A stretch of 38,277 nt of DNA, taken from Candidatus Zhuqueibacterota bacterium. Its GTDB lineage: Bacteria; Zhuqueibacterota; Zhuqueibacteria; Oceanimicrobiales; Oceanimicrobiaceae. This document shows, piece by piece, positions 1 through 37,509 of this stretch (position 1 is the stretch's first letter; each line of letters opens with the position of its first letter). The stretch is from NCBI GenBank assembly GCA_029262005.1, contig JAJDAG010000155.1, forward strand, positions 1 to 38,277, read 5' to 3'. A program made the position numbers and the translations under genes. The notes below the pieces were generated by a model. It was not told the origin of the DNA and made no database searches. It worked only from the letters and a program-made list of their open reading frames with translations.

Positions 1-2527
1 TGACAACAGGTTGTTTGGCATGCAGTTTTACGCTTAATTCAATGTCCTCGCCCAGGATGCGTTGAATCAATTTCAAAATATCCTCACAAGTTTCATTGAT
101 GCTTATGTTTTGCTTCTTAAGTAATTTTTGACGACTAAAACTCAGTAGTTGATCCGTGAGCGCAGTGGCTTTTTCAGCAGCTTTTAGTATTTCCAGAAAA
201 TCCTGATGTGCCGGCTCATTTGGTGAAGTTTCTTTCAGTCCGAACGCAGCATTTCCGAGAATGGCCGTCAGTAGGTTATTGAAATCATGTGCAACACCAC
301 CGGCAAGCGTACCAACTGTTTCCATTTTTTTTGACTGTAGCAATTGGTCTTCAAGTTCCCTTTGTGCGGTCAGGTCGCGTAGAATACCGCGAATGGCCAC
401 AATTTCACCTTTTTCGTTGCGAATGGCAGTGGACGTTTCTTGAACGTGGAGAATTGTTCCGTCTGTTTTTTTCATGCTCGAAGGAAAGTCTTTGACGTAA
501 CCGTTTTTGGCGAGCGTTTGCTTCAACGCTTCGCGCTCCATGGAACTGTCGTAGAGTTCATCGCCAATATTTACATTGAGCAAGTCTTCTTTGGAAGGAT
601 AACCAAATAAATCTACGCCGGCCTGATTAATGTCGAGAAATTTCCCTTCCGGAGAACTGATAAAAACCACATCTTTTGACTCTTCAAACAAAGTGAGATA
701 TTTTTCTTCAGCCTGCTTGCGCCATTTCATAAATCGTAACTTCATAATGGCCATGTTGATTGCATTGCACACCGACTTTACAAACTCAATTTCTTCAACT
801 TGCCATGTGCGGCGATATGTGACCTGATTAAAAACCAGAACAAAATAATCATTTTTGTGAAAGGCAAATGGGTACCAGAGCAAGCTTGTAATCTTCATGT
901 CGTTGTGGAGGACATCAAATGAGCCATCTTCTTTTATAGTTGGATGAACATCATCGACATGACTTTCCATCAATCTATGGTGCGCTCGCATATATTCCGC
1001 ACTTGCCTGGAAATGTCTAATTGGGTAAGTCGCCTTGGTTTGGGTGACCGCAGGAACGTTTGGGTTTAAGTGTTCACACAAAGCGATGGCTTGATTTTTA
1101 ATAAAGTCAATATCATACAACAGGCAACGATCCAGTTGCAGTGTTTTACCAACAATACCGGCCATATTATCCAGAATCGTGTCACGGTCGTCTTCCATAA
1201 TAATACATTTAGCAATCCGGTAAAGGGCGTTTGCGAAGTGCAGTTGCTGTTGCAACGCGTGTGCGGTTCGGTTGCGCTCGGTTATATCTCTGGCGATTAC
1301 TTGAATGGCACACTTACCATTCCGGGCAAAAGAAGTTGCCTCAACTTCTACATCCAGAACACTGCCATCCAGCCTGATGAATTTTTCCTCCAGGGAAGTA
1401 AATTTTGTGCCGTTTTTATTTTGCATTTCTTTAATAAGATGGCTGACTGCTTCCCTGCTTCCAGGATGCACATGTTCAATAATCGAACTGCCAATAACCT
1501 CGTCCGGTCTTTCCGCGCCAATTAGTTTGAGTCCAGCAGGATTGATAAAGGTGAGCTTGCCGTCATATTGTATGGCTATGAAGTCCGGCGAAAGGTCTAT
1601 CAAACGACGATACTTTGCTTCGCTTTGCAGCAATGCTGCTTCTGTAGTTCTCCGAAACCAATATGAGGCCAGCAGTTCAGCCACAATACGAACAGCCCTG
1701 ACTTCCTGTTCCGACCATTGGCGCTTTTCAATTGCGGTCAACGCGATCAAGCCCGCCAATTTGTTATTTTGACTCTGGATGGGCACAATGAGCATTGCCT
1801 GAACACCTTGCCCAAGATGTAGATTTGTTAGAGACTGCGTTTCAGTTTTTGCTTCGGCAGGTATGGCGACAATCTGGTTCAGAGTTAATTGCGGTAACCA
1901 CTTCTGAAAACAATCAAGATCTGTCTGCTTTTCTTCACTTTTGGAATTAGTACATTGGAACCAGCGCCAGGCCGCCGTGTTTTCCGGGTCAATCTTGCCC
2001 AAACAGGCTTTGTCGACTTTGATTACCATAGCCAATAGCCCTAAAATTGTTTGCAGATCAACTTGATTGGCGCTCATCAACATTCTCGATATTCGTGCCA
2101 CCGCCTCCTCAATTGCCAGGCGCTGTTTTAGCAGATTTTCATATTCTGCCTGCATGCGGTGTTTGTGTAACGCCAGCTCAATACTAGAAAGCAATTCCCG
2201 CTCATCGATGGGTTTGACAATGTAACCAAATGGTTCCGCGCTTTTGGCGTGCTGCAAAGTGGCGTCATCGGTATAAGCCGTCAGGAAGATGACGGGCACA
2301 TTGTGTTTTCTCTTAATAAGAGTGGCTGCTTTTGTGCCATCCGCCTCGCCCTGTAGTTTGATATCCATAAGCACGAGATCCGGGCGTATTTTTTCAGCAG
2401 CCGATAAAGCAGTTTCACACGAATCCACAACGGCGGTCACATCATACCCGGAATCACCTAGCATGTCTTTGATGTCTTGCGCAAGGATGTGCTGGTCTTC
2501 GACGATTAAAATTTTGGCTCGCAGCAT
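1..2527 (-). CDS. Hybrid sensor histidine kinase with N-terminal receiver, GAF and PAS domains (3' end outside window)
   Basis: The gene reads leftward from an ATG at 2527 and has no stop before the window edge, so about 842 residues are visible. A receiver domain (about 1-120) opens the protein, with phospho-acceptor Asp55 in the LMDIK context and conserved Lys105. After it come a GAF-like region (about 140-290), a PAS domain (about 310-420, ending in an ITERN linker), a second GAF region (about 420-590), a second PAS (about 595-715), and a histidine-kinase dimerisation segment with HDFNN around His747. The HATPase domain must lie beyond the left edge. An AAGGAA ribosome site precedes the start. 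The receiver-first layout suggests the kinase is itself the target of an upstream phospho-donor, plausibly the MASE1 kinase encoded in the same direction. It follows the receiver-PAS gene after 33 bp. Domain calls are confident; the signal sensed is unknown. Confidence 0.9.
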   Translation of the reverse strand, partial: MLRAKILIVEDQHILAQDIKDMLGDSGYDVTAVVDSCETALSAAEKIRPDLVLMDIKLQGEADGTKAATLIKRKHNVPVIFLTAYTDDATLQHAKSAEPFGYIVKPIDERELLSSIELALHKHRMQAEYENLLKQRLAIEEAVARISRMLMSANQVDLQTILGLLAMVIKVDKACLGKIDPENTAAWRWFQCTNSKSEEKQTDLDCFQKWLPQLTLNQIVAIPAEAKTETQSLTNLHLGQGVQAMLIVPIQSQNNKLAGLIALTAIEKRQWSEQEVRAVRIVAELLASYWFRRTTEAALLQSEAKYRRLIDLSPDFIAIQYDGKLTFINPAGLKLIGAERPDEVIGSSIIEHVHPGSREAVSHLIKEMQNKNGTKFTSLEEKFIRLDGSVLDVEVEATSFARNGKCAIQVIARDITERNRTAHALQQQLHFANALYRIAKCIIMEDDRDTILDNMAGIVGKTLQLDRCLLYDIDFIKNQAIALCEHLNPNVPAVTQTKATYPIRHFQASAEYMRAHHRLMESHVDDVHPTIKEDGSFDVLHNDMKITSLLWYPFAFHKNDYFVLVFNQVTYRRTWQVEEIEFVKSVCNAINMAIMKLRFMKWRKQAEEKYLTLFEESKDVVFISSPEGKFLDINQAGVDLFGYPSKEDLLNVNIGDELYDSSMEREALKQTLAKNGYVKDFPSSMKKTDGTILHVQETSTAIRNEKGEIVAIRGILRDLTAQRELEDQLLQSKKMETVGTLAGGVAHDFNNLLTAILGNAAFGLKETSPNEPAHQDFLEILKAAEKATALTDQLLSFSRQKLLKKQNISINETCEDILKLIQRILGEDIELSVKLHAKQPVV

Positions 2528-2560
2528 AGATACGTTCCTTCGTGTTAAGCAGTCACACTT

Positions 2561-3313
2561 TCAGTTTGGTGACCCCCGAAAAATAACAACGCCGCCTCGA
2601 ATATCTCCCTGTTTATCACGTATGGGAGCAGCGCTATCATCAATTGAAATAGCTTCGCCGTCACGCTTTATAAGCAAAACGTCAGCGGAAAACCGAATAG
2701 CATCCCCTGATTGAATTGCTCTGCGAATGGGACTTTCAACAGCACATTTTGTTTTTGCGTACACGATGTTAAATACTTTGTCATAAGGCAGGCCAATGGC
2801 TTCATCAAGCATCCAGCCGGTCAGGGATTCTGCAACCGGATTCAAAAAAGTAACCGCTTCATGAATATCTGTGGTAATGACACCATCGCCAATGCTGGTG
2901 AGAACATTGTCTAACCATTTTTCATTTTCTGCGATTTGCTGTTGTGTTGCATGTTTATGGAGCGCGAGTTCCACGGCTGCCTTGATTTCGTGCTCCTGGA
3001 ACGGTTTGAAAACATACCCACATGGCTGTGCTTTTTTGGCGCGTTGGATTATGGTTTCGTTTGCATAAGCAGATAAAAATATAACTGGAATTTGTAACCG
3101 CTGCCGTATTTCTATGGCCGCATCAATGCCATCTATTTCCCCCACCAACATAATGTCCATCATGACCAAGTCTGGTCTTAATGACTCAGCTATTGCGATT
3201 GCATCTTCGCCGCAGGCACTCATTCCTACAACTTCATAGCCGAAGTTGATTAATATTTCTTTCAAATCTTCAGATAAAATAAATTCGTCTTCTACAAGCA
3301 AAATGCTTGGCAT
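2561..3313 (-). CDS. Response regulator with C-terminal PAS domain
   Basis: A 250-residue protein. An N-terminal receiver (1-120) has the acidic pocket VEDE, phospho-acceptor Asp53 (MMDIM) and Lys103 (VFKPF). A single PAS domain (about 126-250) follows, with a typical core (GDGVITTD, FLNPVAESLTGW). There is no DNA-binding, HTH or enzymatic output domain, so it probably acts through protein contacts or as a sensor-relay module. The start is placed at the ATG at 3313, because the GGGGAGG ribosome site sits 6 bases upstream. A second in-frame ATG at 3319 directly abuts that site and is a poor start. It lies between two kinase genes on the same strand, 111 bp after the MASE1 kinase and 33 bp before the hybrid kinase, as expected for a phosphorelay operon. 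Confidence 0.9.
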   Translation of the reverse strand: MPSILLVEDEFILSEDLKEILINFGYEVVGMSACGEDAIAIAESLRPDLVMMDIMLVGEIDGIDAAIEIRQRLQIPVIFLSAYANETIIQRAKKAQPCGYVFKPFQEHEIKAAVELALHKHATQQQIAENEKWLDNVLTSIGDGVITTDIHEAVTFLNPVAESLTGWMLDEAIGLPYDKVFNIVYAKTKCAVESPIRRAIQSGDAIRFSADVLLIKRDGEAISIDDSAAPIRDKQGDIRGGVVIFRGSPN

Positions 3314-3424: not shown

Positions 3425-5365
3425 TCATGCGACCTCCAGGTTTTGTTTGTCGTTTTGAGAAAATCGAATTTTGTAAACGGTGCCATTTCCGCGATGAAGT
3501 TGAATTGTTCCTTTAAGTTGGTCCGCCAGCGTGTATACCAGGCGCAGGCCAAGAGATGCCGTTTTCTTTACGTCAAAGGAAGTTGGTAAACCAATGCCGT
3601 CATCGCCAACTTCAAGAACAAGAGTGTTCAGTTCCGTATTGTTTGGCATAGGTTCTGCCCGGGATAGCCCAATATGAATTTTCCCTCCATTGTTGCCTGG
3701 AAATGCATGCTTCAATGCGTTTATGACCAACTCATTAATAATCAGTCCGCACGGCACAGCAGTATCAAGAGAAAGTCGGATATCATCCACTTTTATTTGC
3801 ACATCAATCTTGTCAGCAGGCAAATCGTGAACGCGACACAGGTTGGCAGCCAAATCCTGGACATATTCATTGAAATCAATTCTTGCCAGGTCACTCGACA
3901 AATAGAGTTTTTCGTGAATCAGTGCCATAGAACGTATTCGGTTTTGGCTTGCTCGTAACATCGTTTGTACTTCAGGAGTCTTATGCCGGCGTGCTTGCAG
4001 ACTCAGCAGACTCGAAATGACCTGCATGTTGTTTTTTACCCGGTGATGAACTTCATTGAGGAGGGTGTTCTTTTCTTCCAGTGAAGCTTGTAGTTGCATT
4101 TCCACTTGTTTACGCTCTGTAATATCCTGAATAATGCCGCTGAAGCACCGTGGCCCAGTGGTGGCAACCTCGCCGACACTCAGAAGCATCGGAAAAACGC
4201 TGCCATCCCTGCGCTTCCCCTGAACTTCCCGGCTTATTCCGATGATTCCCGATCGGCCGGTTTGCTGAAAATTATTGAGATAACTGTCATGTGTCAGGCC
4301 AATGTTTTCCGGCATGAGCATAGAAACATTTTTGTTGATTACTTCACTCGCAGCATAGCCAAAAATGCCTTCTGCAGCCGGATTAAACGACCGAATCTTG
4401 CCATGAGCGTTTATGGTCATAATGCCTTCTGCCGCGCTGTCGACGATTGCGCGAGTGAGTTCTTCCCGATGGCGAAGTGCCATTTCAGCTTTTTTGCGTT
4501 CTGACAACACAGTGGCGACAATGAGGCCTGTTATGGACATGATGCCCATGAAAGCCACTTCCAGAATAAGTGTTTCCAGAGAGTGAGTCTGATTAAGTGG
4601 CCCCGAAGCTTTAGCACCACTATGTATGGCGACAACCGCCAAAAAGAGATTTGCGACCGTAACCCCTTTGACTCCGAAGCGTATTGCTATCCAAATGATG
4701 AACGGCAGTGGCAAGTAGGTCAGCGGCAAGCTATTCTCAAGTATAAGCTCCTGCATTCCAAAGACAGTCCAACTAATGGCTGCCAACAGAGAATACAAAA
4801 TGCAGATTTCCGCCCAGGTAGTCCACGATTGCCGAAACACGGGTTTCTCGTACCAAACCAGAATAGCCGGAGTCAATAGCAGGATACTCATGGCATTGCC
4901 AAGCCACCATGTAACCCAGACTAAAGAAAAATTTTCCCATAGGTATATGCCTGCCACGCAGAAGCCAGTGGTGCCAAGTGTGGCTGCGATGAGTGGACTA
5001 AATAGCGTTGCCAGACCAACAAACCTCAGCAAACTTGAAGTAGTTGCAAAGAATTTCCGGCCACCAGTGAAACGAGTTATCAACCAGGCCCCGAAAATCG
5101 GCTCGATAACATTACCCAAAATGCCCAGCATGTAGGCTTTAACCGGAACGCCGGCAGAATATGCCAGAAGCATGACTCCGATTACAATTCCGGGCCAGAT
5201 TCGTCTACCGAACAGGAGTACGGCAGCCAGTGCGATGCCGGAGGGTGGCCAAATATGTGTGACAGAGTTGAATTTCTGGAACTGAAGTCCCAATTGTCCG
5301 CCACAAAAGTAAAGTGCAGAAAAAAGAAGTATGCCAAGAGAATATTTAAGCGGGCTGCGTGGCAT
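3425..5365 (-). CDS. MASE1-PAS-HisKA_2 membrane sensor histidine kinase
   Basis: A 646-residue kinase. Residues 8-290 form a multi-helix integral membrane sensor of the MASE1 type; the early motif THIWPPSGIALA is characteristic. A PAS domain (about 300-418) ends in the usual DITERK linker. It leads into a HisKA_2 dimerisation segment in which His441 of HRVKNN is the expected phosphorylated residue. The ATPase domain follows, with an N-box (INELVINALKHA, about 530-545) and a G1 box (DDGIGLP). HisKA_2 kinases often partner receivers that lack DNA-binding outputs, which fits the downstream gene. An AAAGGGA site precedes the ATG. It is the first gene of the leftward signalling cluster. Confidence 0.92.
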   Translation of the reverse strand: MPRSPLKYSLGILLFSALYFCGGQLGLQFQKFNSVTHIWPPSGIALAAVLLFGRRIWPGIVIGVMLLAYSAGVPVKAYMLGILGNVIEPIFGAWLITRFTGGRKFFATTSSLLRFVGLATLFSPLIAATLGTTGFCVAGIYLWENFSLVWVTWWLGNAMSILLLTPAILVWYEKPVFRQSWTTWAEICILYSLLAAISWTVFGMQELILENSLPLTYLPLPFIIWIAIRFGVKGVTVANLFLAVVAIHSGAKASGPLNQTHSLETLILEVAFMGIMSITGLIVATVLSERKKAEMALRHREELTRAIVDSAAEGIMTINAHGKIRSFNPAAEGIFGYAASEVINKNVSMLMPENIGLTHDSYLNNFQQTGRSGIIGISREVQGKRRDGSVFPMLLSVGEVATTGPRCFSGIIQDITERKQVEMQLQASLEEKNTLLNEVHHRVKNNMQVISSLLSLQARRHKTPEVQTMLRASQNRIRSMALIHEKLYLSSDLARIDFNEYVQDLAANLCRVHDLPADKIDVQIKVDDIRLSLDTAVPCGLIINELVINALKHAFPGNNGGKIHIGLSRAEPMPNNTELNTLVLEVGDDGIGLPTSFDVKKTASLGLRLVYTLADQLKGTIQLHRGNGTVYKIRFSQNDKQNLEVA

Positions 5366-5991
5366 GCCTAAGTCCCTTTACGGAGCTCTGAGTCCCCGGG
5401 TATGTCAACGGTTCATGTTAACCAACCACCATTGTCCCAGCCCGGCACGTAAATTGAGGTGTTTCTTGAATGATGCTAGTGTGATTGTTTCGAGATGGAA
5501 GCAATTCCTGTTTAAGAATTGCTTCTAAGCCAGATATAAATCAATAGAATTCGATTATTCGCAATAAATTAATATAACCAGAATAAAATAAGCATACAAG
5601 CAAAAAGTTTTAAAAAAAGAGGTGAAATTTATATTTTTTATACAGCAAGGGGCTTGTGGTTTCGACAAATCTCAAAGTGAGTTGATCTTTTAACAGTATT
5701 TAACTAAATACAGACTCTATTGAACGGCAATTACTCACGCCTTTCCTTTGATTACCACGTTTTTAGAATTGGACAATTTTAACGAAGGATGAAATTGGCG
5801 TCTTGCAAATATGGCAAAAAATAATTCCTCGGCACCGCATGGTTTGCAAAGCCCGGTCAGCCGGAATCATTCGCATTGTTCCTCCTCCGCTGCAGTTGCC
5901 GAATTGTCATATCGAATCTAATTTTTTCGCGAAATCTGCTATTGGTCTGAACTGTACAGCCGCAGTTTTTAAAGTGGCTTTATCGGGGAAC
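5366..5991. other. Intergenic region, AT-rich, no supported gene
   Basis: This 626-bp stretch lies between the 3' end of the heme O synthase gene and the start of the MASE1 kinase gene, both leftward. The segment 5540-5660 is strongly AT-rich and could hold the leftward promoter of the kinase cluster. A hairpin lies at 5498-5525. No open frame here has a ribosome site together with recognisable protein content; a short rightward frame at 5803-6030 runs into the heme O synthase gene in antisense and is not credible. Confidence 0.6.
5498..5525. promoter_or_regulatory. Hairpin with 10-bp perfect stem upstream of the kinase cluster
   Basis: GAAGCAATTC at 5498-5507 is exactly complementary to GAATTGCTTC at 5516-5525, with an 8-base loop. 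It lies about 130 bp upstream of the MASE1 kinase start and 470 bp beyond the heme O synthase stop. It could be a protein-binding operator or a leader hairpin. No T-run follows on the leftward strand, so a classical terminator is less likely. Confidence 0.4.
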
Positions 5992-6855
5992 TTACAGGTT
6001 GACTTTATCGAGGAACATGAACGTGAATAGCGCCGGCAGGTAGAGGATCGAGGCATGCAGGAGATGCTTTGCACTGCGGTTAGACTTTTTTAGCATAACC
6101 TGTATACCGGCAGCAAGGAATGCCGTGCCTAAAAAGAACGCGCCGGCAAAATAAACAGGACCTGTTAAGCCAAGCAACGTCGGCAACAGACTGACGGTCA
6201 GAAGCGCCAGGCAATTAACAACAATGTGAAGACTCGTGTTGGTTCCAGCTTTGTCGATGACCGGCATTACGGGAAAACCGCCACGAGCATAGTCTTCCCG
6301 ATAAAGCCAGGCGATGGCCAGGAAGTGCGGCAACTGCCAAAAAAACAAGATGGCAAACAGAATCCATGCTTCCATACTGACATAGCCGCGCACGGCAACC
6401 CAGCCTCCCATAGCCGGAAGCGCTCCCGGCACTGCGCCTACTACAGTTGACAATGATGATTTTCTTTTCATCGGCGTGTAAATGAATACGTAGCTTGCGA
6501 GAGTTAAAATCGCGAGCAGGGAGGTCAGCAGGTTTACAGCAAGGGCCAAATGCAGGATGCCGGTTACTGAGATAAGAACGGCAAACAGTTTCACTTCCTC
6601 AGGTTTTAGTCGCCCGGCAGGCAAAGGACGGTTTCTGGTGCGTTTCATTTTGGCATCGATGTTTCTTTCGATAAGCTGGTTCAACGCATTGGTTCCAGCC
6701 GAAACCAGCCAGCTCCCCACAAGTGTATGCAGCAGGAGGAAGAAGTCAAGCTTGCCAAGGGTGCCAAGGTAAAATCCGCCGAAGGTACTCACGATTACCA
6801 TGAAAGTAACGCCGGGCTTTGTAAGTTCCAAGTAGTCTTTAAGCTTGTCAACCAT
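5992..6855 (-). CDS. cyoE: Protoheme IX farnesyltransferase (heme O synthase)
   Basis: A 287-residue UbiA-family membrane prenyltransferase that attaches farnesyl to heme b to give heme O. The first Asp-rich motif region is clear: NALNQLIERNIDAKMKRT at about 57-73, followed by RPLPAG. The second conserved loop appears as YREDYARGGFPVMPV. About eight hydrophobic helices alternate through the sequence. The start is set at the ATG at 6855 (MVDKLKDYLELTKPG), where homologues begin. A longer open frame extends upstream but overlaps the heme A synthase gene and has no family content. It lies 28 bp after heme A synthase, so the two enzymes making heme A are co-transcribed. The synonym ctaB is equally valid. 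Confidence 0.95.
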   Translation of the reverse strand: MVDKLKDYLELTKPGVTFMVIVSTFGGFYLGTLGKLDFFLLLHTLVGSWLVSAGTNALNQLIERNIDAKMKRTRNRPLPAGRLKPEEVKLFAVLISVTGILHLALAVNLLTSLLAILTLASYVFIYTPMKRKSSLSTVVGAVPGALPAMGGWVAVRGYVSMEAWILFAILFFWQLPHFLAIAWLYREDYARGGFPVMPVIDKAGTNTSLHIVVNCLALLTVSLLPTLLGLTGPVYFAGAFFLGTAFLAAGIQVMLKKSNRSAKHLLHASILYLPALFTFMFLDKVNL

Positions 6856-6883
6856 TATATCGCCTGGTATGTTAACAGTATCA

Positions 6884-7864
6884 TCATGCCGCAGCCGGTT
6901 CCATGATGTTTTTTTTGCGAAACAATTTATCTTCAGCGGGCAATAAGCGATAAGCTCTGAGTGTAAGCACCAGGCTGGTCGCCAGAATGAAGGCGCCGGT
7001 AGCAACGTGCGCCGTGGTTGGAATGACGGCCTTTTTTGACCAAATCGTAAATGCGGCAAGCGTGATTTGAATGATCAAGGCGGTTACCAGAACCACTGCT
7101 GGTCGCACCAGTTCTATCCGCTCGCGGTGATTGCGAATGATTTTGGCGACCGTGGTGATAATAAACATAGAAACCACAACAGCGCCAAGACGGTGCAAAA
7201 AGTGGATGGCCACTGCTTGCGACTGTATTGGCGGAATCACTTTGCCGAAAGCCAACGGAAAATCGGGTATCGCCAGCCCCGAGCCTGTGTGACGCATGAT
7301 GGCGCCGAGAATCAGTTGAATGTAGACTGCCACGGTTGTGAACAGCGTGATGTTAAAAACGGCCGGCTGAAGAGACTCAGGCGCCTCTTCAGCCGTTTTC
7401 CACTTTTCGGATGTGAATATTGCAATGGCGATGGTCATCAAGAAAAATGCCTGCGCCAAACAACCGTGCAGCACAGAAATTGGAGTTGGCAGGAGATACA
7501 ACACAGTTATTCCTCCCAAAATACCTTGCAGGATAACTGCTGCCAGTGCACAGAGGGCATACCATTTTAACCATTTTCGCGATTCTTTTGCCCAGACCCA
7601 GATAGTCAGGATGACGGTCAGCATGCCTACTACTGTGGCCACCATTCGATGCCCGTGCTCGTAAAGGATGCCACCGACCATTTTCGAAAGTGGAAATGAG
7701 AACATAAATTGACCATAAGTGTTGGGCCAATCCGGCACTGAAAGGCCTGAGCCGGTACTCGTTACCAGCCCACCTATAAAGATCAAAATAAATGTCATGC
7801 CCGCCAGCAGTTTCGAAAAACGATGCAGCCACAATCCGTTTTGTTTTTGCACCTGACTATCCAA
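6884..7864 (-). CDS. ctaA: Heme A synthase (COX15/CtaA family)
   Basis: A 326-residue membrane protein that oxidises the C8 methyl of heme O to make heme A for aa3-type cytochrome oxidases. The family signatures are visible: GGLVTSTGSGLSVPDWPNTYG near the N-terminus, EHGHRMVA, VLHGCLAQ, RHTGSGLAIPDFPLAFG, HFLHRLGA and a final TAHVATGA. Together these supply the paired heme-ligating histidines of the two four-helix halves. The frame begins at a TTG at 7864, which overlaps the end of the peroxiredoxin gene by 8 bp and has GAGGAA just upstream. A GTG four codons later is an alternative start. The overlap suggests translational coupling. No oxidase subunit genes are in this window. Confidence 0.94.
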   Translation of the reverse strand: MDSQVQKQNGLWLHRFSKLLAGMTFILIFIGGLVTSTGSGLSVPDWPNTYGQFMFSFPLSKMVGGILYEHGHRMVATVVGMLTVILTIWVWAKESRKWLKWYALCALAAVILQGILGGITVLYLLPTPISVLHGCLAQAFFLMTIAIAIFTSEKWKTAEEAPESLQPAVFNITLFTTVAVYIQLILGAIMRHTGSGLAIPDFPLAFGKVIPPIQSQAVAIHFLHRLGAVVVSMFIITTVAKIIRNHRERIELVRPAVVLVTALIIQITLAAFTIWSKKAVIPTTAHVATGAFILATSLVLTLRAYRLLPAEDKLFRKKNIMEPAAA

Positions 7865-10452: not shown

Positions 10453-12024
10453 ATGAAAAAATTAAAAATAGCGATAATTGACCTTGTAACCAAGGGTCCG
10501 ACTACAGCGCTTTGGGCCAGAGTTATGCACGCGAACTTTGCCGGCATTATGCCACAGATCGTTGCACTGTGGTGCGAACAGGCAGGCCATGATGTCACTC
10601 TGGAATGTTACACTGGATTTGAAGACATCGTTGAGGGATTTGACCAGAATTATGATCTTGTTTTTATTAGTTCATTTACACAGTCAGCCCAACTTGCCTA
10701 TGCTCTCAGCAATATGTTTCGTTCCCGCGGTGCTGTAACCGCTCTCGGTGGACCACATGCCCGCTGTTATCCGCAGGATGCGACTAAATATTTCGATTAC
10801 GTTTTGGGTTTTACTGACAAAGAAATAATTAAGGATGTGCTGCACGATGCTGAACAGCATAGGCCCGAAGGCTTATTTCTCTCTGCGAAACAGCAACCAC
10901 AAAATTTACCGGGTGTCCGCGAGCGCTGGAAATACATTCATGCAACTTTACAAAAAGCGCCGCTGATTCAAATTGTACCCATGATAGGCAGCTTGGGGTG
11001 TCCTTACACATGCTCTTTTTGTATCGATTCCGAGATACCCTACCAACAGTTGGAGTTGGACGTTTTGAAAGAAGATCTGCGTTTTCTGCTCAAAACAGTA
11101 AAGCGGCCGCATGTAGCATGGCACGATCCAAATTTTGGAATTCGTTTTGATGAGCAACTGGGCGCAATCGAAGAGGTGGTACCGCCGGGCAGCATTGATT
11201 TTATCGCCGAAAGCAGTCTGGCCTTGTTATCCGAACCACACCTTAAACGTATGAAAAAAAATGGCTTTAAAGCGCTTTTGCCTGGAGTGGAATCCTGGTT
11301 CGCTCTTGGCAACAAGTCAAAAACCGGTCAAGCTACCGGCATGGACAAAGTGAAGCAGGTGGCGGAACATATTAATCTGATTGGGAAGTACACACCCTAT
11401 GTGCAAGTCAATTTTGTTTTAGGGCTTGACCTGGATGAAGGCGATGCACCATTCGAGTTGACCAAACGGTTTCTTGATTTATCGCCTGTGGCTTTTCCTG
11501 CCTACTCACAACTGTCCGCATTTGGCCAGGCAGCTCCGCTTAATCTCGAGTATCAGAAAGCCGGACGCGTGTTGCCATTTCCGTTTCACTTTTTGAATAA
11601 CAACCATGCCATGAACGTAAAACCAATGAACTATTCCTGGATAGAGTTCTACGATAATCTCATCGATCTGTCTGAGTACACTTTTTCCTGGAAAGCCATA
11701 AATAAGCGTTTCAGAGCGATGAAAACGCCCATACCAAAATGGATGAACCTCTTGCGTGCGGTCTCGTCGGAAGGGTTTGGTCGAATTCGCTACTACAAAG
11801 AAATCCGCCGGCGTCTGGAGGCTGATCCTGAATTTCTTCCATTTTTTGAAATGGAAACGACCAAGGTGCCACAATTTTATGTCCAGCGTTTACAAAATGA
11901 TCTGGGCCCGCTCTGGGAATGGCTGCCCAAAGAGGCCATTGAACACGATCCCAAGGCATATCTGAAATCTGAAATGGCAAAAGAAGCTCAACCTGTGAAA
12001 GCAGAAGTCGTACTGCAGGAATAA
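10453..12024 (+). CDS. Cobalamin-binding-type radical SAM protein
   Basis: A 523-residue enzyme. Residues 1-150 resemble the Rossmann-like B12-binding domain seen in many radical SAM proteins: LVFISSFTQSAQLAYALS, then GGPHARCYP, then YFDYVLGF. The usual DxHxxG cobalamin histidine motif is not evident. A radical SAM core follows with the CX3CX2C cluster at Cys183, Cys187 and Cys190 (GCPYTCSFC), which should bind a [4Fe-4S] cluster and S-adenosylmethionine. The C-terminal 150 residues are rich in Trp and basic residues and match nothing specific. GGGAG precedes the ATG. Related proteins methylate or rearrange unreactive carbons in lipids, cofactors or peptides, but the substrate cannot be read from this sequence. 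It stands alone, between two copies of the palindromic repeat. Confidence 0.88.
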   Translation: MKKLKIAIIDLVTKGPTTALWARVMHANFAGIMPQIVALWCEQAGHDVTLECYTGFEDIVEGFDQNYDLVFISSFTQSAQLAYALSNMFRSRGAVTALGGPHARCYPQDATKYFDYVLGFTDKEIIKDVLHDAEQHRPEGLFLSAKQQPQNLPGVRERWKYIHATLQKAPLIQIVPMIGSLGCPYTCSFCIDSEIPYQQLELDVLKEDLRFLLKTVKRPHVAWHDPNFGIRFDEQLGAIEEVVPPGSIDFIAESSLALLSEPHLKRMKKNGFKALLPGVESWFALGNKSKTGQATGMDKVKQVAEHINLIGKYTPYVQVNFVLGLDLDEGDAPFELTKRFLDLSPVAFPAYSQLSAFGQAAPLNLEYQKAGRVLPFPFHFLNNNHAMNVKPMNYSWIEFYDNLIDLSEYTFSWKAINKRFRAMKTPIPKWMNLLRAVSSEGFGRIRYYKEIRRRLEADPEFLPFFEMETTKVPQFYVQRLQNDLGPLWEWLPKEAIEHDPKAYLKSEMAKEAQPVKAEVVLQE

Positions 12025-12116
12025 GCGCACGCAACTGCAAACCATCGACTCAGAAATTTGAACTTGTCTTGGAGGATTCAGCAACAAAACCTCTATAGCA
12101 ACTAAATCTCTGACCA

Positions 12117-12245
12117 AAATTGTGTTTGACCGGAAAACCAGGCTCTTTACCATTTCAGACAAATACTCACGCGCCAATCCCTAGCCCCGAACCGCAAGTT
12201 TGGCATGATGACAAACTTAGAGTTTTCGGTCAAACACTAAATAGT
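12117..12245. repeat. Palindromic intergenic element, copy B
   Basis: GTGTTTGACCGGAAAAC at 12122-12138 and GTTTTCGGTCAAACAC at 12222-12237 form an inverted pair that differs by a single extra G. The right end continues ACTAAATAGT, which matches the left end of copy A on the other strand. The first 14 bases, AAATTGTGTTTGAC, recur exactly near 19693. The element sits between the radical SAM stop and the WD40 gene start, so in RNA or as a cruciform it could fold into a long hairpin ahead of the WD40 gene. Confidence 0.7.
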
Positions 12246-12301
12246 TCACAAATGGTCTGTTTCTGATCCGCAAATCGACAAATTTCTTCTATGTTAATTA
12301 A

Positions 12302-15300
12302 ATGGAGGTTTGTTACAGGACTGGATTTTTTATATGTGAGAAAGTAAGTACTGTGGGAAAGGACACTATTAGTACGAACATCATAAAGTTACAGGCAATT
12401 GCCTTTTTTCTGTTTTGCCTATACTCTCCCGTTTTCGGTCAATCCCCCGAAATTATTTTAAAGACCCACCACTCAGGAAGCGTTAATGCCGTGCAATACA
12501 GCCCTGATGGCAATCTGTTTGCCACGGCCGGCGCCGATAACACCATCAAGCTTTGGTCGGTTGCATCAGGAGTGCTTTTGCGGACTTTGAGCAAACATGA
12601 ATCAGACATTTTTACCATTGCCTTCAGTCGGGACGGGCGCTATTTAGCCTCAGCCGGTTACGATCGAAAAGTCATTGTCTGGGATGTTTTCTCCGGGAAC
12701 ATTGCCCATACTTTTCTCGATCATGATTTGGCGGTCACGTCACTTGCGTTCAGCGCTGATGGCGCTCTACTGGCTTCAGGCAGCCGCGACAAGCGCGTAT
12801 CTATCAGGGACATGCAGGATGGAAAACTGCTGCATACCTTGAAATTACACCGTGGCGTGGTTACCTGCGTGGCCTTTGATGCGCAAGCTCAGTTTCTTGT
12901 TTCCGGCGATACTGAGGGTGACATTCTCATCTGGAATCCCCAAAGTGGTTTGCTTGGGCACAGGCTAAAAGCACATTCCGGTGGGGTGTCCTCGCTAACT
13001 TTCTTTGATGGTGGGGAACGCCTGGTAACCGTTGGCAAGGACGGACTGATAAAGCGATGGGCAACCAATACCTGGAGATTTGTCGATCTGTTAGGCAAAA
13101 GTGCTTTGCCTCTTACCGGATTGGCTGCCACTCACGAAGGGCCTTTGCTCGTTGTTACTTCCGGCAAAGACGCTCAGATTTGGGATGCAGCCACGCGCCG
13201 GATTAATCATGAGTTGTTGGGCCATAAGGCCGAAATAACCGCCATTGCCTTTTCTTCAGACGGCCTTTCGGTGGCAACCAGTGATGTTGAAGGTTTCGTC
13301 AATCAGTGGCGGGTACAAACAGGCACGCTTGCACAATCCATTGCGCCGCAATCTTTCAGCGCAAATAATATTGCGTTCAGCCCCGATGGCAAACGGCTCG
13401 CTTCTGCCAATGAAAGCGGCAGCCTCAAATTATGGGATATTGAAAAGGGCATTTTTACATATTCGATTCCTGCACACACCCAGCCGGTTTCAGGGATTGC
13501 ATTCGACCCAAACGGCCGGATGTTGGCCAGTGCCGGACTCGATGGGTCAGCAGCGCTGTGGGAAGTTAAAAACGGCACACTTTTGCAAAGGCTCTCTGCG
13601 GATAATGAGGCTGTTTACGCAGTTGGTTTCAGTCCAGATGGACGTTTGCTCGCCACTGCCGGTCAGGATAAAATGGTGCATTTGTGGCTGGCTGCCAACG
13701 GGCAACTTTTACGCAGCATGTCGGGACATTTAGCGCGAATTTGGTCAGTTGATTTTAACCCGACCGGCTCATTGCTGGTTACTGCAAGTGATGATTACAC
13801 CGTCCGAATTTGGAATGTGCGGAATGGCACTTTGCTTAAAACTCTCATCGGTCACACAGCTTTGGTACGAATTGCGCGTTTTAGCCCGGACGGCCGTTTC
13901 GTCGCTTCTGCCAGTTCCGACAAAACGATTCGGCTGTGGGAGGTTGGTTCCGGTCGTCAAACTTCTGTTCTACAAGGGCATACATCCAGCGTCAAAGCAG
14001 TGGCTTTTAGCCCGGATGGGCGCACACTCGCATCCGGCGGATTCGATAACAGCATCCGACTTTGGGATATTTCCACAGGACAGACTATACGCACACTCAT
14101 GGGACACTCGAATGATATCAACGCGCTGGCGTTCAGCGGCAATGGCAGTTGGCTTGCCTCAGCGGGGGCAGATGGCGCTGTTCGCTTGTGGGAACCGTTG
14201 ACCGGCGAAACTCAATTTGTTTTCGCCAATTTGCCAAATAGCCAATGGCTATCTTACCGGCCGGGTTCTCCATTTTATGCCGGCTCAAAGAATGCGCCGC
14301 AATTCGCCGCAATTCGTTTTGGTCTAAATATCGATAACCTGCAGCCACTTAGCCGCTTTTCAAGTGAACTACACACAGACAATCTGACAAAATCTTTGGC
14401 TGGCCCTGCACCTGTTTTGAATCGCTCAGAAAATGCTGCTCAAATTTTTGATCCGGGAAACTATAATTTGTGGTTTGCCGGTTTTGTGTTGCTTGCAATT
14501 GCCGGGCTTGTTTTTGCCTGGGTGTTGCGACAAAAAGCGCAACCACCTCAGAGCGACGCAAGCCACTTTTTTTCACGTGCTGGTTTTAGTGATATTCAAT
14601 CTGTTTCCGGGAACGCGCTTTTACTGGGGGCAAACGGGCAAATGATATGCCTGGCGTTAGAATGGAGAAATGGCCACACACTTGGCGACGAGAACTTACT
14701 GCAGACGCTCACCAAACGACGCCCAAACCCAAAGCAAAAATGGCGCGTCTATCTCATTTACGACAATGAGCCGCCCGACCACTCCGAAGTCCTGCGTTTG
14801 CGCACGGCTTTGACTTGCGTTACTATTCCGATTTCATCTGCGCTGCTGGCCAACTCCCTCAGCTCGAATCGTTGCAAAGAGACATTGATTGAGCTTGAGG
14901 CTGCTTATGTCAAGCGCACAGACCCGTATTATGAGGCGGCGCCGATTCAAGATGCCGGGTTGTTTTTTGGCCGCAAAGAATTTCTTGATCGTATTCCAGC
15001 AGAACTTGCAAATGGCGGTTGCATCGCCCTTTTAGGCTTGCCGAAGATCGGGCTTACTTCTATCGCAATGCAGCTCAGGCAGCGCTATGTTGATGCACCG
15101 GTCGCTTATCTCGATTCTGCTTCCGGACAGCACAGCGCTGAGGAATGTCTAACCGAAATTTATTGGCAACTGAGCGGTCTCAATCGTTCTCCGGGCGCCA
15201 GACCGCTGTCCCTAACAGATGCCTGTAAGAAGATCAAGCGACTGCATTCAACCGCTGGCGCAGCACAACCATTTCTGATAATTTTGGATGATCTTTTAGT

Positions 15301-15931
15301 GACAAAACGAACAGGTCTTTTGCCTGCACTTGAAAATCTCGCAACCCGCAAAAAATGTATTTCGGTACTAATTACAACCACCAACATTGAATCTGTCAGC
15401 ACAAAAACCGACCCGTTTGTCACAAGTTTTCAGCGTGAGGTGATCGGTTTTTTTCGACCGGCAACCAGTGAAACAATGATTCGCGGCCTGGGCGCTTTGA
15501 ACGAGACCTCCTGGATTGAAGACTCTGTTGAACGGATGTTTTATTACTGCGGTGGCCACCCATTTGTGACCAGACTGTTTGCAAGTATTGTGTGCAAACA
15601 AGGCAGTCTAAGGAAAATTGACTCGCAGCGGGTCGAAGCAGCAGCCACAGAAGTTGTGAACTCGATAAATACCAATGATATTGGCAATTTATTTGAAAAC
15701 GGGATCTGGCAAAGTTTTCTCAGCGAAGAAAAAGCAGTCATCAGGTTGATAGCCAGAAGCAAAGAACACGGCGTGCAACAGAGCGAAATTCCAGATAAAC
15801 TCATTCCAGCCTTGCACACAGTCGAAAACTATGGTATCGTAGGCAATGATGTGGGCCGACTGAGTTTAGGATCTCACCTGTTTAACGCTTGGTTGCACAT
15901 CAGGCTTCTGGCCGAAAAAACTTCAGCGTAA
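12302..15931 (+). CDS. WD40-repeat membrane protein with C-terminal STAND-like ATPase domain
   Basis: Up to 1,209 residues. A hydrophobic leader (about 29-47, ending SPVFGQ) should export the N-terminus. About 14 WD40 repeats follow (54-640), enough for two seven-bladed propellers; repeats 6 and 8 are degenerate. The stretch at 645-688 resembles a linker seen after WD40 arrays in other bacterial proteins. A transmembrane helix (722-741) comes next, then an uncharacterised alpha/beta region (750-880). From about 886 there is an AAA/STAND-like ATPase beginning FFGRKEFLDRI. Its P-loop reads GLPKIGLTS, so the Lys of GKT/S is replaced by Leu. Walker B-like FLIILDDL is at 991-998. The predicted topology is propellers outside and ATPase inside. 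The start is uncertain: the ATG at 12302 lacks a ribosome site, and GTG at 12353 gives a more normal signal peptide. Confidence 0.85.
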   Translation: MEVCYRTGFFICEKVSTVGKDTISTNIIKLQAIAFFLFCLYSPVFGQSPEIILKTHHSGSVNAVQYSPDGNLFATAGADNTIKLWSVASGVLLRTLSKHESDIFTIAFSRDGRYLASAGYDRKVIVWDVFSGNIAHTFLDHDLAVTSLAFSADGALLASGSRDKRVSIRDMQDGKLLHTLKLHRGVVTCVAFDAQAQFLVSGDTEGDILIWNPQSGLLGHRLKAHSGGVSSLTFFDGGERLVTVGKDGLIKRWATNTWRFVDLLGKSALPLTGLAATHEGPLLVVTSGKDAQIWDAATRRINHELLGHKAEITAIAFSSDGLSVATSDVEGFVNQWRVQTGTLAQSIAPQSFSANNIAFSPDGKRLASANESGSLKLWDIEKGIFTYSIPAHTQPVSGIAFDPNGRMLASAGLDGSAALWEVKNGTLLQRLSADNEAVYAVGFSPDGRLLATAGQDKMVHLWLAANGQLLRSMSGHLARIWSVDFNPTGSLLVTASDDYTVRIWNVRNGTLLKTLIGHTALVRIARFSPDGRFVASASSDKTIRLWEVGSGRQTSVLQGHTSSVKAVAFSPDGRTLASGGFDNSIRLWDISTGQTIRTLMGHSNDINALAFSGNGSWLASAGADGAVRLWEPLTGETQFVFANLPNSQWLSYRPGSPFYAGSKNAPQFAAIRFGLNIDNLQPLSRFSSELHTDNLTKSLAGPAPVLNRSENAAQIFDPGNYNLWFAGFVLLAIAGLVFAWVLRQKAQPPQSDASHFFSRAGFSDIQSVSGNALLLGANGQMICLALEWRNGHTLGDENLLQTLTKRRPNPKQKWRVYLIYDNEPPDHSEVLRLRTALTCVTIPISSALLANSLSSNRCKETLIELEAAYVKRTDPYYEAAPIQDAGLFFGRKEFLDRIPAELANGGCIALLGLPKIGLTSIAMQLRQRYVDAPVAYLDSASGQHSAEECLTEIYWQLSGLNRSPGARPLSLTDACKKIKRLHSTAGAAQPFLIILDDLLVTKRTGLLPALENLATRKKCISVLITTTNIESVSTKTDPFVTSFQREVIGFFRPATSETMIRGLGALNETSWIEDSVERMFYYCGGHPFVTRLFASIVCKQGSLRKIDSQRVEAAATEVVNSINTNDIGNLFENGIWQSFLSEEKAVIRLIARSKEHGVQQSEIPDKLIPALHTVENYGIVGNDVGRLSLGSHLFNAWLHIRLLAEKTSA

Positions 15932-16083
15932 CCCCCATTTTCAAACCCCATCCTTGCTGGTTTGAGTTGTCTCGCAGCAATTTTCCTGCTTTAATTTAGC
16001 TTGAATTATCCATTAATCAGGTTAATAAACGTGGGATAGCGCATGCTGAATCACATTCCTGCTGTTTCTGTTTTTTTGCGCGC

Positions 16084-17694
16084 CTAAGTCTGGACAGTCT
16101 GCAGTATACTCAATGCAACCGCCTCTGCCACTTTGAGCCCATCGATGGCAGAAGAGAGAATACCACCGGCATATCCAGCGCCTTCTCCCGCCGGATACAG
16201 GCCGGCCGTATTGACACTCTGAAAATCATCTTTGCGCTTAACCTGAACAGGTGAAGAAGTGCGAGTTTCAACCGCAGTTAAAACAGCATCTTTCATAGCA
16301 ATGCCCTTGATTCTCTTATCAAAAGCAGGTAGCGCTTCACGAATGGCTTCGATAGCATAATCCGGCAAGCTCCGGCTTAAATCACTCAAATGGATGCCTG
16401 GCGCGTAGGACGGCTCAACCGTGCCCAGCGCTTTAGACGGCCTGTTGGCGAGAAAATCCCCAACCAATTGTCCTGGTGCGTCATAAGTGCCACCGCCTAG
16501 CTCAAAGGCGCGTTTCTCCCAGTGACGCTGAAACTCGATTCCAGCCAACGGACCGTCCGGATAATCTTCGGGAGAAACGCCGACGACTATCGCGCTGTTT
16601 GCATTCCGCTCATTGCGCGAGTATTGGCTCATACCATTTGTAACAACACAGCCGGGCTCTGAAGTTGCCGCCAGCACCGTGCCACCCGGACACATGCAAA
16701 AACTGTACACAGAACGCCCATTGCGGCAATGATGAACGAGCTTATAATCGGCTGAGCCCAATAGCGGGTGCCCCGCATACATGCCGAAAAGACATTTGTC
16801 AATTAGAGTCTGCGGATGTTCAATACGAAATCCGATGGAAAACGGTTTGGGTTCCATGAAAACACACCGGTCAAAAAGCATCTGAAATGTGTCGCGGGCA
16901 CTGTGACCAACTGCCAGAACAACATACTCACTTCGGACTTGCTCCCCATTAGCCAGGGTGAGTCCGCGCACCTTATTGTCTTCAATTTGCAAATCTTCAA
17001 CGCGGGCCTGAAAACGAAATTCACCGCCCAGCGACTCAATGGTTGCGCGCAGATTTTCCACAATCTTCACCAATCTGTAGGTGCCTATATGCGGTTTATT
17101 TACAAACAGTATTTCCTCGTTAGCACCGGCCTTAACAAATTCGGTGAGCACTTTGCGTGCACGATTTTTGTGATCTTTTATCTGGGTGTATAGCTTACCA
17201 TCAGAAAATGTTCCGGCCCCGCCTTCGCCAAACTGCACATTTGATTCGGGATTGAGTTCCCTGTCGCGCCAGAAGCCAAAGGTATCAGCAGTGCGCTCTC
17301 TAACCTTTTTACCGCGCTCAAGAATGAGGGGACGAAAACCCATTTGCGCCAGACACAGAGCAGCGAACAAGCCACATGGTCCTGCACCAATTATAATGGG
17401 CCGCTCTGCCAAATCGCTCGGTGCTTGTGCCACAAAATGATAGTGGGTGTCCGGTGCCACCGTAACATGCGGATCACCTTGCATCTTCAAGAGGATTTCC
17501 TCCTCGTTGCTGATTTCCACATTCAGGCTGTAAATGAATGAAATCCCGCTTCGCTTGCGGGCATCCACACTGCGTTTAAAGATCGAATGGCCGAGCAACT
17601 CGGCTTTACTTATCTCCAGTTTATTGATGATGGCTGCTTCCATTTCCTCCTGAGTGTGTTCGAAGGGCAGCTTTATGTCTCTTAGTCTTAGCAT
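16084..17694 (-). CDS. FAD-dependent dehydrogenase (COG2509-type)
   Basis: A 536-residue flavoprotein. Residues 1-90 form a small N-terminal domain typical of this uncharacterised dehydrogenase family. The dinucleotide-binding loop IIGAGPCGLFAALCLA (Gly103, Gly105, Gly108) follows, ending with the acidic LILERG. Further family features are QFGEGGAGTFSDGKL, a YVVLAVGHSARD segment for the second FAD contact, and PAGEGAGYAGGI near the C-terminus. These proteins are predicted cytoplasmic oxidoreductases, and no substrate is established as far as I know. It is transcribed alone and leftward, convergent with the WD40 gene and divergent from the exporter operon. Confidence 0.9.
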   Translation of the reverse strand: MLRLRDIKLPFEHTQEEMEAAIINKLEISKAELLGHSIFKRSVDARKRSGISFIYSLNVEISNEEEILLKMQGDPHVTVAPDTHYHFVAQAPSDLAERPIIIGAGPCGLFAALCLAQMGFRPLILERGKKVRERTADTFGFWRDRELNPESNVQFGEGGAGTFSDGKLYTQIKDHKNRARKVLTEFVKAGANEEILFVNKPHIGTYRLVKIVENLRATIESLGGEFRFQARVEDLQIEDNKVRGLTLANGEQVRSEYVVLAVGHSARDTFQMLFDRCVFMEPKPFSIGFRIEHPQTLIDKCLFGMYAGHPLLGSADYKLVHHCRNGRSVYSFCMCPGGTVLAATSEPGCVVTNGMSQYSRNERNANSAIVVGVSPEDYPDGPLAGIEFQRHWEKRAFELGGGTYDAPGQLVGDFLANRPSKALGTVEPSYAPGIHLSDLSRSLPDYAIEAIREALPAFDKRIKGIAMKDAVLTAVETRTSSPVQVKRKDDFQSVNTAGLYPAGEGAGYAGGILSSAIDGLKVAEAVALSILQTVQT

Positions 17695-29171: not shown

Positions 29172-29535
29172 GTTTACCCTGCGACAATTATTGGTTATCA
29201 TCAATAGTTTATCACTCTTTGAACATTTTTTATTTAATACAAGCCATGACTCTATTTATTCCGTAATGGATGCCAATGGTAGTATCGCGAACACTCAGAG
29301 TCAAGAGCGTGTGGGAGTGGGAAGTGTATGGCTTTAAGTTAAAACAACCCATTAACAATGTCAAAAGAAAAAAGTCGAAATATGCAATAACCGAACGTTT
29401 TTCAGAGAAAAAATTGTGCGATAAAACGAGCTGATGTGCTGGTTGCCTGATCTGTTCTCAAAAGCTGGTTCTGGTGCTGCGTTTGTTGTACAATCAAACA
29501 TCCTTGTTGATTGGGGTGTGTCCGGAATTTATTTC
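29172..29535. other. Intergenic region between the permease and TPR/GWxTD genes
   Basis: This stretch lies between the leftward MacB-type permease stop and the leftward TPR gene start, so it probably holds a promoter for the latter. A modest hairpin (CAATCAA at 29491-29497 with TTGATTG at 29507-29513) lies just beyond the permease stop and could be a weak terminator, though no T-run follows on the leftward strand. No coding frame is supported. Confidence 0.4.
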
Positions 29536-37447: not shown

Positions 37448-37475
37448 TTTACACTCCATATAGAAATCAAACTCG

Positions 37476-37509
37476 GTCAACGAGCGGGGCTGTTGCCCCG
37501 CTCGTTGAC
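37476..37509 (-). terminator. Strong hairpin after the Cys-rich protein gene
   Basis: A perfect 15-bp GC-rich stem (GTCAACGAGCGGGGC at 37476-37490 paired with 37495-37509) encloses a 4-base loop, 11 bp beyond the leftward Cys-rich gene's stop. On the leftward strand it is followed by GTTTGATTTC rather than a clean T-run. It is most likely a terminator or processing hairpin that limits read-through into the lipoprotein gene. Confidence 0.75.

Follow-up and report, generated by a model that had tools for sequence, protein, structure and literature searches.

The usual view of STAND proteins is that of cytoplasmic switches driven by ATP, and in the classical receptors of this class the ATPase lies ahead of the sensor and both are cytoplasmic. 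These receptors switch with nucleotide, as the abstract of PMC6468293 describes. Inactive STANDs have also been described in conflict systems, namely iSTAND, iSTAND2 and, in the two-gene nSTAND2 operon, one eroded member; a role as sensor or assembly component is proposed for them (PMC8195603, PMC7159879). In Planctomycetota, PMC11032199 describes membrane Ser/Thr kinases in which a periplasmic WD40 or TPR array is connected, mostly by one transmembrane (TM) helix, to a cytoplasmic kinase. Here we describe a gene whose product appears to bring these two themes together, an exported WD40 array joined through a TM helix to a STAND-like domain that has lost key nucleotide-site residues. It lies at positions 12302-15931 of contig JAJDAG010000155.1 of a Candidatus Zhuqueibacterota (KSB1) bacterium, within a stretch of 38,277 nucleotides that was analysed as a whole (hereafter, the window).

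Architecture of the WD40-TM protein

The gene is an ATG-started open reading frame (ORF) on the forward strand, with a product of 1209 residues; the window lies within contig C63 of a 5.77 Mb genome that is 98.7% complete (G000). From the N- to the C-terminus the protein consists of a signal-like stretch, 14 WD40 blades, one TM helix, a segment of about 120 residues and an AAA+ domain. The features of the locus are as follows.

12302-15931, +: whole ORF of 1209 residues, with signal-like N-terminus, 14 WD40 blades, TM helix, restriction-endonuclease-like segment and pseudo-STAND domain (ORF list, Pfam)
12380-12442, +: signal-like hydrophobic stretch, residues 27-47 (hydropathy 1.86 at residue 27)
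12458-14215, +: 14 WD40 blades, residues 53 to about 638, two times seven by count (Pfam, spacing)
14216-14470, +: linker between propellers and membrane, residues about 639-723, partly conserved (alignment with homologues)
14471-14527, +: TM helix, residues 724-742 (hydropathy)
14555-14920, +: 122-residue segment (752-873), probably a catalytically dead restriction-endonuclease-like domain (model, structural alignment)
14954-15928, +: pseudo-STAND AAA+ domain, its C-terminal parts helical and winged-helix-like (model, alignment of 12 modules)
15035-15061, +: degenerate Walker A GLPKIGLTS, residues 912-920, Lys replaced by Leu918 (alignment)
15272-15295, +: degenerate Walker B FLIILDDL, residues 991-998, Asp996 kept and the Glu position 997 occupied by Asp (alignment)
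15551-15562, +: GGHP motif, residues 1084-1087, kept in 12 of 12 modules (alignment)
12122-12237, no strand: imperfect inverted repeat, arms 12122-12138 and 12221-12237 (repeat search)

WD40 families of Pfam fill the N-terminal part of the protein (WD40, E 9.9e-125), and the tandem GH/WD blades of about 40 residues are those of a WD40 propeller. With blade starts picked by eye at residues 53, 93, 135, 177, 219, 261, 302, 344, 386, 428, 470, 512, 554 and 596, the computed spacing is 40-42 residues, and by count the 14 blades would form two seven-blade propellers. The C-terminal 530 residues gave nothing meaningful in Pfam (a single CcmH match, E 0.072), and with the C-terminal part no useful match was obtained in NCBIfam and no lead in a sequence search of the PDB. 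Searches of the protein's own genome, with the C-terminal part (E <= 0.001) or the WD40 part (E <= 1e-40), matched the window gene alone.

When 63 genomes of the class were searched with the C-terminal part, three were positive at E <= 1e-10; across 82 genomes of the phylum, eight matched at E <= 1e-8, and the match was full-length in the same three alone (G000, G003 and G005). The two full-length homologues, at locus L022 of G003 (= L043) and locus L023 of G005 (= L044), belong to candidate division KSB1 OFTM356 and OFTM177, members of the window genome's family, and the trio represents three genera. They are 37% and 32% identical to the whole window protein, their frames are open throughout, and both present the same succession of signal-like stretch, WD40 array, TM helix, segment and ATPase, in agreement with the preliminary description of the window, made from its sequence, in which about 14 exported blades were followed by a TM helix and a C-terminal STAND-like ATPase. 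The family's five remaining genomes, two of them under 90% complete, gave no match to the gene. Identity to the homologues reaches 49% and 48% in the later blades (residues 358-675 and 367-675), while the C-terminal part is less conserved, at about 37-38% and 26-29%; still, the cytoplasmic part (about 450-490 residues) is in frame in all three proteins, with 78 alignment columns identical throughout. In Pfam, the C-terminal part of L022 gave sub-threshold matches only (best NPHP3_N, E 8.4e-4) and that of L023 none.

Topology was judged from hydropathy and flanking charge. The hydropathy maxima of the window protein lie at residue 27 (1.86, signal-like) and residue 724 (2.38, TM), with weaker peaks of 1.54 and 1.41 inside the predicted ATPase and the segment, and a hydrophobic stretch ahead of the blades is present in both homologues too; cleavage of the signal-like stretch is possible near VFG/QS, as placed by eye, with an uncertain start codon. 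The net charge of the 15 residues before and after the TM helix is -2/+1 in the window protein, -1/+2 in L043 and +1/+1 in L023, so that the positive-inside tendency agrees in two of three and is equal on both sides in the third. An exported propeller and a cytoplasmic ATPase, as initially proposed, are supported by these predictions.

The nucleotide site is degenerate in all three WD40-TM proteins

Segment and STAND domain recur together as a module, and twelve such modules, the three WD40-TM proteins and nine others described below, were aligned. The Walker A Lys contacts phosphates. In the window protein its place is taken by a Leu (GLPKIGLTS, codon CTT), as had been noted at the outset, and the homologues read GLPRVGLSS (L043, codon CTC) and GFRKFGATS (L044, codon GCG), the Lys thus being lost in three of three (L/L/A); all nine other modules keep it within G[LM]R[KS]xGKTS. 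A sequencing error is an unlikely source of the Lys-to-Leu change, because the Lys is gone from three genomes with different codons. Walker B had been regarded as intact, and here the alignment says otherwise: only its first Asp is kept (three of three), the second residue being D/G/C where all nine other modules have Glu. At this position, 997, the window protein alone retains an acid (DD), and it also lacks about 14 residues immediately after Walker B. The functional GxxxxGK[ST] by which STAND domains are recognised is absent from the trio, and their Walker B with two acids is degenerate in all three and lacks its second acid in the two homologues. The alignment shows both the architecture and the loss of Walker A Lys and Walker B Glu to be common to members of three genera.

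The changes are not spread evenly. Nineteen columns are invariant in the nine other modules; in the trio, nine of them are kept, among them both P-loop Gly, Ser920, Asp996 and GGHP, seven are mixed, and three are changed throughout, namely K918, E997 and N1037 (the Asn of an NPxF stretch). A hydroxyl is retained at residue 919 (T/S/T). The basic residue at P-loop position 4 (K/R/K) was considered as a possible compensation for the missing Lys; it does not look compensatory, since Lys already occupies this position in eight of the nine other modules. GGHP, found in 12 of 12 modules, corresponds to the Gly-x-Pro motif of the STAND helical part. At the sequence level, catalytic residues have been changed selectively while the motifs of the fold stay.

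An AlphaFold model of residues 752-1209, built with five aligned sequences, has a mean pLDDT (predicted local distance difference test) of 70.5 and a pTM (predicted template modelling score) of 0.56, the P-loop region falling under 50 in pLDDT. With this model, Foldseek against the PDB gave an RFC clamp loader in its first row and Cdc6 in its second. After ranking of Foldseek's top 1000 chains with VIA-align, the first 16 rows were Orc/Cdc6 proteins (best 1w5t_A, Z 14.4, root-mean-square deviation (rmsd) 9.1 Å, 223 residues aligned), and plant NLRs stood lower (Z 10.5-11.2). The C-terminal domain is thus predicted to adopt an AAA+ fold nearest to Orc/Cdc6, the kind of fold that STAND domains have, and the ATPase fold suspected in the preliminary description finds support in the model. 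By its fold and motifs the domain looks derived from STAND proteins, and with the features of the nucleotide site gone it is here termed a pseudo-STAND.

The segment between helix and ATPase

Modelled by itself, the segment reached a pLDDT of 83.8, with the order alpha-beta-beta-beta-alpha-beta-alpha-beta-alpha, which fits the alpha-beta-beta-beta-alpha-beta core of restriction endonucleases. The nine best VIA-align rows were all restriction endonucleases (Nt.BspD6I, R.BspD6I2, EcoT38I and FokI), at Z 6.5-6.9 and rmsd 3.4-3.8 Å over 102-121 of the 122 residues, with Argonaute MID domains close behind (Z 6.4); Foldseek with the segment gave no match at E <= 0.001, its first rows being small GTPases. 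A Z under 8 may reflect merely a common arrangement. A restriction-endonuclease-like, PD-(D/E)XK fold is thus predicted as probable and no firmer, given that Z stays under 8 and that Argonaute MID domains are nearly as close. On the alignment of the 12 modules, inspected by eye, no acidic or Lys columns corresponding to the catalytic D and (D/E)xK are shared, which makes nuclease activity unlikely. The segment had been put forward as a possible effector; an endonuclease-like fold lacking the catalytic residues makes an adaptor the more likely role.

A recurring segment-STAND module

The segment is also not the unmatched stretch that it first seemed, as it accompanies STAND domains in other bacteria too. 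Searching genome contigs with a profile built from the three C-terminal parts gave L045 (an earlier contig scan with the window protein as single query gave no lead). This is a frame of 1381 residues with an N-terminal Tubulin_2 domain (E 4.9e-64), a complete segment and an ATPase reading GLRKVGKTS and FDEVD; it is the closest intact relative, 32% identical to the window protein. A tblastn search of plasmids with L045 gave 19 records, of which two from Nostoc, L046 and L047 (NACHT), both with a second STAND-like gene behind them, were taken into the analysis; the other 17 (16 Klebsiella and 1 Qingshengfaniella), whose matches began only at query residue 106 or 121, were left out. With the window protein as query the plasmid search returned the same two Nostoc records and no others. 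A viral collection yielded L048 (TPR-segment-STAND), 19% identical to the window protein; a search of a phage collection and a viral scan with L045 gave no lead, and a viral scan with L048 returned only itself. Among 398 sampled genomes of L045's phylum, its own and three more (L059, L060 and L061) matched at E <= 1e-20. In a sample of 388 relatives there were five matches at E <= 1e-25, the three KSB1 members together with L075 (TPR) and L076, which carries a signal-like stretch, a short N-terminal part and a TM helix ahead of the module.

These nine modules are homologous to the window protein in the STAND domain and, less strongly, in the segment. The N-terminal partner is tubulin-like, NACHT, TPR, a TM anchor or none; no WD40 array was seen in any of the nine, and GK[ST] and DE are intact in all. 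Directly after four of the nine comes a second STAND-like gene, one with a TIR and one with a predicted nuclease domain. The TPR-STAND proteins L016/L074, matching only from the ATPase onward, were left out of the twelve. A further 18 hits in genomes of the KSB1 class (L004-L021), mostly TPR-TM-STAND proteins, also have GK[ST] intact in the printed frames.

Some of these loci have features of their own. At L045 (2530-10993), a TPR-S gene is followed, about 0.8 kb on, by the Tubulin_2-segment-STAND gene, which overlaps a STAND-TIR gene; this is a candidate conflict locus. At L048 (357-4413), the TPR-segment-STAND gene is overlapped by a STAND-like gene whose product has a predicted pPIWI-associating nuclease domain, on a contig classed as viral and with an integrase-like ORF (4694-5761, by eye) nearby. 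L059, L060 and L061, from three genomes, are segment-STAND proteins of 664-683 residues with a HEPN-like C-terminus (by eye).

Relatives with an intact GKT, which the preliminary description had named as an argument against its proposal, do exist, in nine of nine other modules; all are of other architectures, and this points to a derived loss in the WD40-TM trio and does not overturn the finding. In a tree of the 12 modules, with the segment included and the Walker columns dropped, the trio formed one branch (support 94/96, below the threshold for a star), with L044 on a long branch, and trio plus L045 were set apart at 100/99. Another tree, of 25 rows without the segment (10 of the 12 modules, 11 of the 18 other KSB1-class hits and 4 partner genes), placed the WD40-TM protein L044 outside L045, with weak support (84/52). 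The simplest reading of the alignment and trees would be a single loss as the module joined the exported propeller, the dead domain being then retained in three genera.

Genomic surroundings

Pfam was run on 23 window ORFs including the gene itself (out of 48 of at least 100 residues, many of the others overlapping), on six other ORFs of L022 and on five other ORFs of L023. In the window, a radical SAM gene lies upstream on the same strand, 277 bp off, and a gene for an FAD protein downstream on the opposite strand. The neighbours at L022 are ClpB, which is AAA+ but not STAND, and a DUF3857/transglutaminase protein, and those at L023 are a protein without Pfam match and an aldehyde dehydrogenase. 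No MoxR or vWA gene is among the scanned ORFs of the three loci. Whether homologues sit in defence islands was a check raised at the start, and its outcome is divided: none of the scanned window and L022 ORFs is of the HipA or HsdR-like kind, whereas L023 has two such genes near its WD40-TM gene, one for HipA_C (4768-5694, -, E 7.6e-47) at about 4.7 kb and one HSDR_N_2-like (6828-7784, -, E 1.1e-5) at about 2.6 kb; the trio offers no other hint of a conflict context.

An uncharacterised protein was considered as a conserved neighbour and rejected, as it is encoded beside the gene in L023, has its relative about 6 kb off in L022 and lies on another contig in G000. This protein (L023 8334-9965, -; L022 18219 onward) has no Pfam match and a hydrophobic stretch near its start, and occurs in eight of eight family genomes. 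The palindromic repeat reported upstream of the gene is real, though imperfect; it ends 64 bp before the gene and has three short partial matches elsewhere in the genome, and no Rfam family matched it. Promoter- and terminator-like sites in 11900-16200 showed no excess over shuffles. Elsewhere in the window are a TPR protein with a GWxTD domain (26322-29204, -) and a PD40 propeller protein (36365-37480, -).

Candidate partners

Six of the eight family genomes encode a TPR-TM-STAND protein with intact P-loop. In three of them (G003:C61, G002:C33 and G004:C155), where the protein has a signal-like start and an Ig-like Big_7 domain besides TPR, a gene for a soluble STAND-kinase follows within 1 kb; the G003:C61 pair is L020 286-2376 and L089 1498-3429. 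The kinase was identified by Pfam in L089 (Pkinase, E 5.2e-45) and by eye in the other two genomes. The pair looks like a membrane sensor and a kinase effector joined via two STAND domains, and it shows that this KSB1 lineage has sensors wired through a TM helix to a STAND domain, even with a kinase next to them. As an obligatory partner of the WD40-TM protein the TPR-TM-STAND protein was ruled out, because it has no match in G000 at E <= 1e-10 and the match in G005 is limited to the TPR part; a more divergent or more distant partner may exist. In G000, AAA_16 gave 14 matches at E <= 1e-4, one of them a TIR-NB-ARC-TPR protein (L095). This protein, at 850-3192 of G000:C205 in the window's own genome, has 781 residues, the order TIR_2, NB-ARC, TPR, and a GxxxxGKTT motif.

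A proposed membrane receptor with a pseudo-enzyme platform, and its alternatives

Taken together, the data incline us, somewhat beyond an even balance, to see in the WD40-TM protein a KSB1 receptor or scaffold that crosses the inner membrane once and whose cytoplasmic part is a pseudo-enzyme platform signalling without an ATP switch. The propellers would bind a ligand or protein of the envelope, and binding would cluster or turn the receptor and pass a signal through the TM helix. The cytoplasmic part, unable to run the classical ADP/ATP switch, would serve as a nucleotide-independent docking platform (adaptor segment, pseudo-ATPase and winged helix) that recruits a putative cytoplasmic partner, much like the inactive subunits of other AAA+ assemblies. 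In favour of this proposal are the same architecture in both homologues, the selective catalytic changes, the trio branch obtained without the Walker columns and the predicted retention of the AAA+ fold. The intact relatives, too, lie behind sensor-like TPR, NACHT and tubulin-like domains, four of nine with a second STAND-like gene, and precedents are offered by the Planctomycetota WD40/TPR-TM-kinases (PMC11032199) and the inactive STANDs (PMC8195603). More tentatively, and with clearly less confidence, the protein may be a transmembrane pseudo-NTPase receptor, NLR-like but inside out, with an exported double propeller, the ATP switch abandoned and clustering as its sole means of signalling; it might then be the dead, membrane-bound subunit of a mixed STAND ring.

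Several observations weigh against a receptor of this kind. Only three WD40-TM sequences are at hand and their branch is not starred in the tree. Confidence in the model of the cytoplasmic part is moderate, and lowest around the P-loop, and many of the top structural alignments have an rmsd of 8-10 Å. The predicted topology comes from hydropathy and charge, and the charge difference is nil in one of the three proteins. A second STAND gene adjoins the WD40-TM gene at none of the three loci, and the TPR-TM-STAND protein, the obvious candidate partner, is unmatched in G000 (E <= 1e-10), G005 holding only a 24% match to its TPR part.

The preliminary description envisaged nucleotide binding without hydrolysis, with ATP or ADP as a structural or sensory ligand. 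The P-loop Gly, the hydroxyl at 919, Ser920 and the first Walker B Asp, kept in three of three, would suit this, as would the predicted fold and the acid that the window protein alone keeps at 997; it is nevertheless doubtful, because Walker A Lys and Walker B Glu are both gone from all three and the base at P-loop position 4, a Lys in most of the other modules, offers no compensation. Decay has slightly less to recommend it. If the exported propellers did the work as a mainly envelope protein and the cytoplasmic part were a decaying relic anchor, the lower conservation of the C-terminal part (38% and 29%, against 48-49% in the later blades) and the deletion after Walker B in the window protein would be explained, but a cytoplasmic part kept whole and in frame in three of three, with its 78 identical columns, is hardly expected of a relic, and we hold this to be quite improbable.

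The intact relatives raise the idea of a role against phages or in conflict: the protein would be a receptor that surveys the envelope, kin to the segment-STAND conflict-like proteins but facing outward. The closest intact relative, L045, overlaps a STAND-TIR gene and has a TPR-S gene some 0.8 kb upstream; L048, on a contig classed as viral, has an integrase-like ORF nearby (by eye) and a partner with a predicted nuclease domain; and the HipA_C and HSDR_N_2-like genes of L023 lie within a few kilobases of the WD40-TM gene. However, by Pfam none of the direct neighbours of the KSB1 trio is a conflict gene, nothing of the HipA or HsdR kind occurs among the scanned window and L022 ORFs, and PADLOC was silent on the C-terminal part, the full protein being matched solely within its WD40 region; such a role is unlikely in our judgement. 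Least credible, to the point of being very hard to sustain, is a segment that would be an active nuclease effector, set free or switched on by the receptor: the whole-domain similarity to the nuclease domains of FokI, BspD6I and EcoT38I (Z 6.5-6.9) speaks for it, and against it are a Z below 8, the empty Foldseek result at E <= 0.001 and the want, by eye, of an acidic/Lys set common to the 12 modules in the strands expected for PD-(D/E)xK.

If the receptor with a nucleotide-independent platform is the right reading, a STAND scaffold could transmit a signal without nucleotide, with the sensor outside, the membrane crossed and the catalytic residues dropped, and these proteins would provide a natural case for testing how inactive STANDs, as already proposed in conflict systems, function. 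The analysis also outlines a recurring two-domain module, a probable dead restriction-endonuclease fold and a STAND domain, behind several kinds of N-terminal sensor.

Comparison with known systems

Inactive STANDs and periplasmic WD40-TM-kinases have each been described; their combination, a WD40-TM-STAND protein, we did not find described in the open-access literature, which misses most subscription journals. With iSTAND, iSTAND2 and nSTAND2, as presented in PMC7159879 and PMC8195603, the window protein shares a STAND-clade AAA+ domain with eroded NTP-binding motifs. According to the same papers, these inactive STANDs sit in MoxR-vWA ternary systems or two-gene operons, unlike the window protein, and the exported WD40 array and TM helix of the latter are absent from the descriptions consulted there (PMC7159879, PMC8195603). 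The window gene falls outside the definitions of the iSTAND ternary system and the nSTAND2 operon, because the partner genes are not seen.

With the Planctomycetota kinases (PMC11032199) it has in common a long periplasmic WD40 array, a TM helix and a cytoplasmic signalling domain; the output differs, a kinase in Planctomycetota as against a restriction-endonuclease-like segment and a pseudo-STAND in the window protein, whose WD40 array is N-terminal. The TPR-TM-STAND proteins of its own family (L020 and orthologues) share the signal-like stretch, the repeat sensor, the TM helix and the STAND domain, and differ in their intact P-loop, in having only a short stretch between TM helix and STAND domain and in the STAND-kinase gene adjacent in three genomes. 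Like the classical STAND receptors (MalT, and NACHT or NB-ARC proteins with C-terminal WD40 repeats), the window protein couples a STAND ATPase domain to a repeat sensor.

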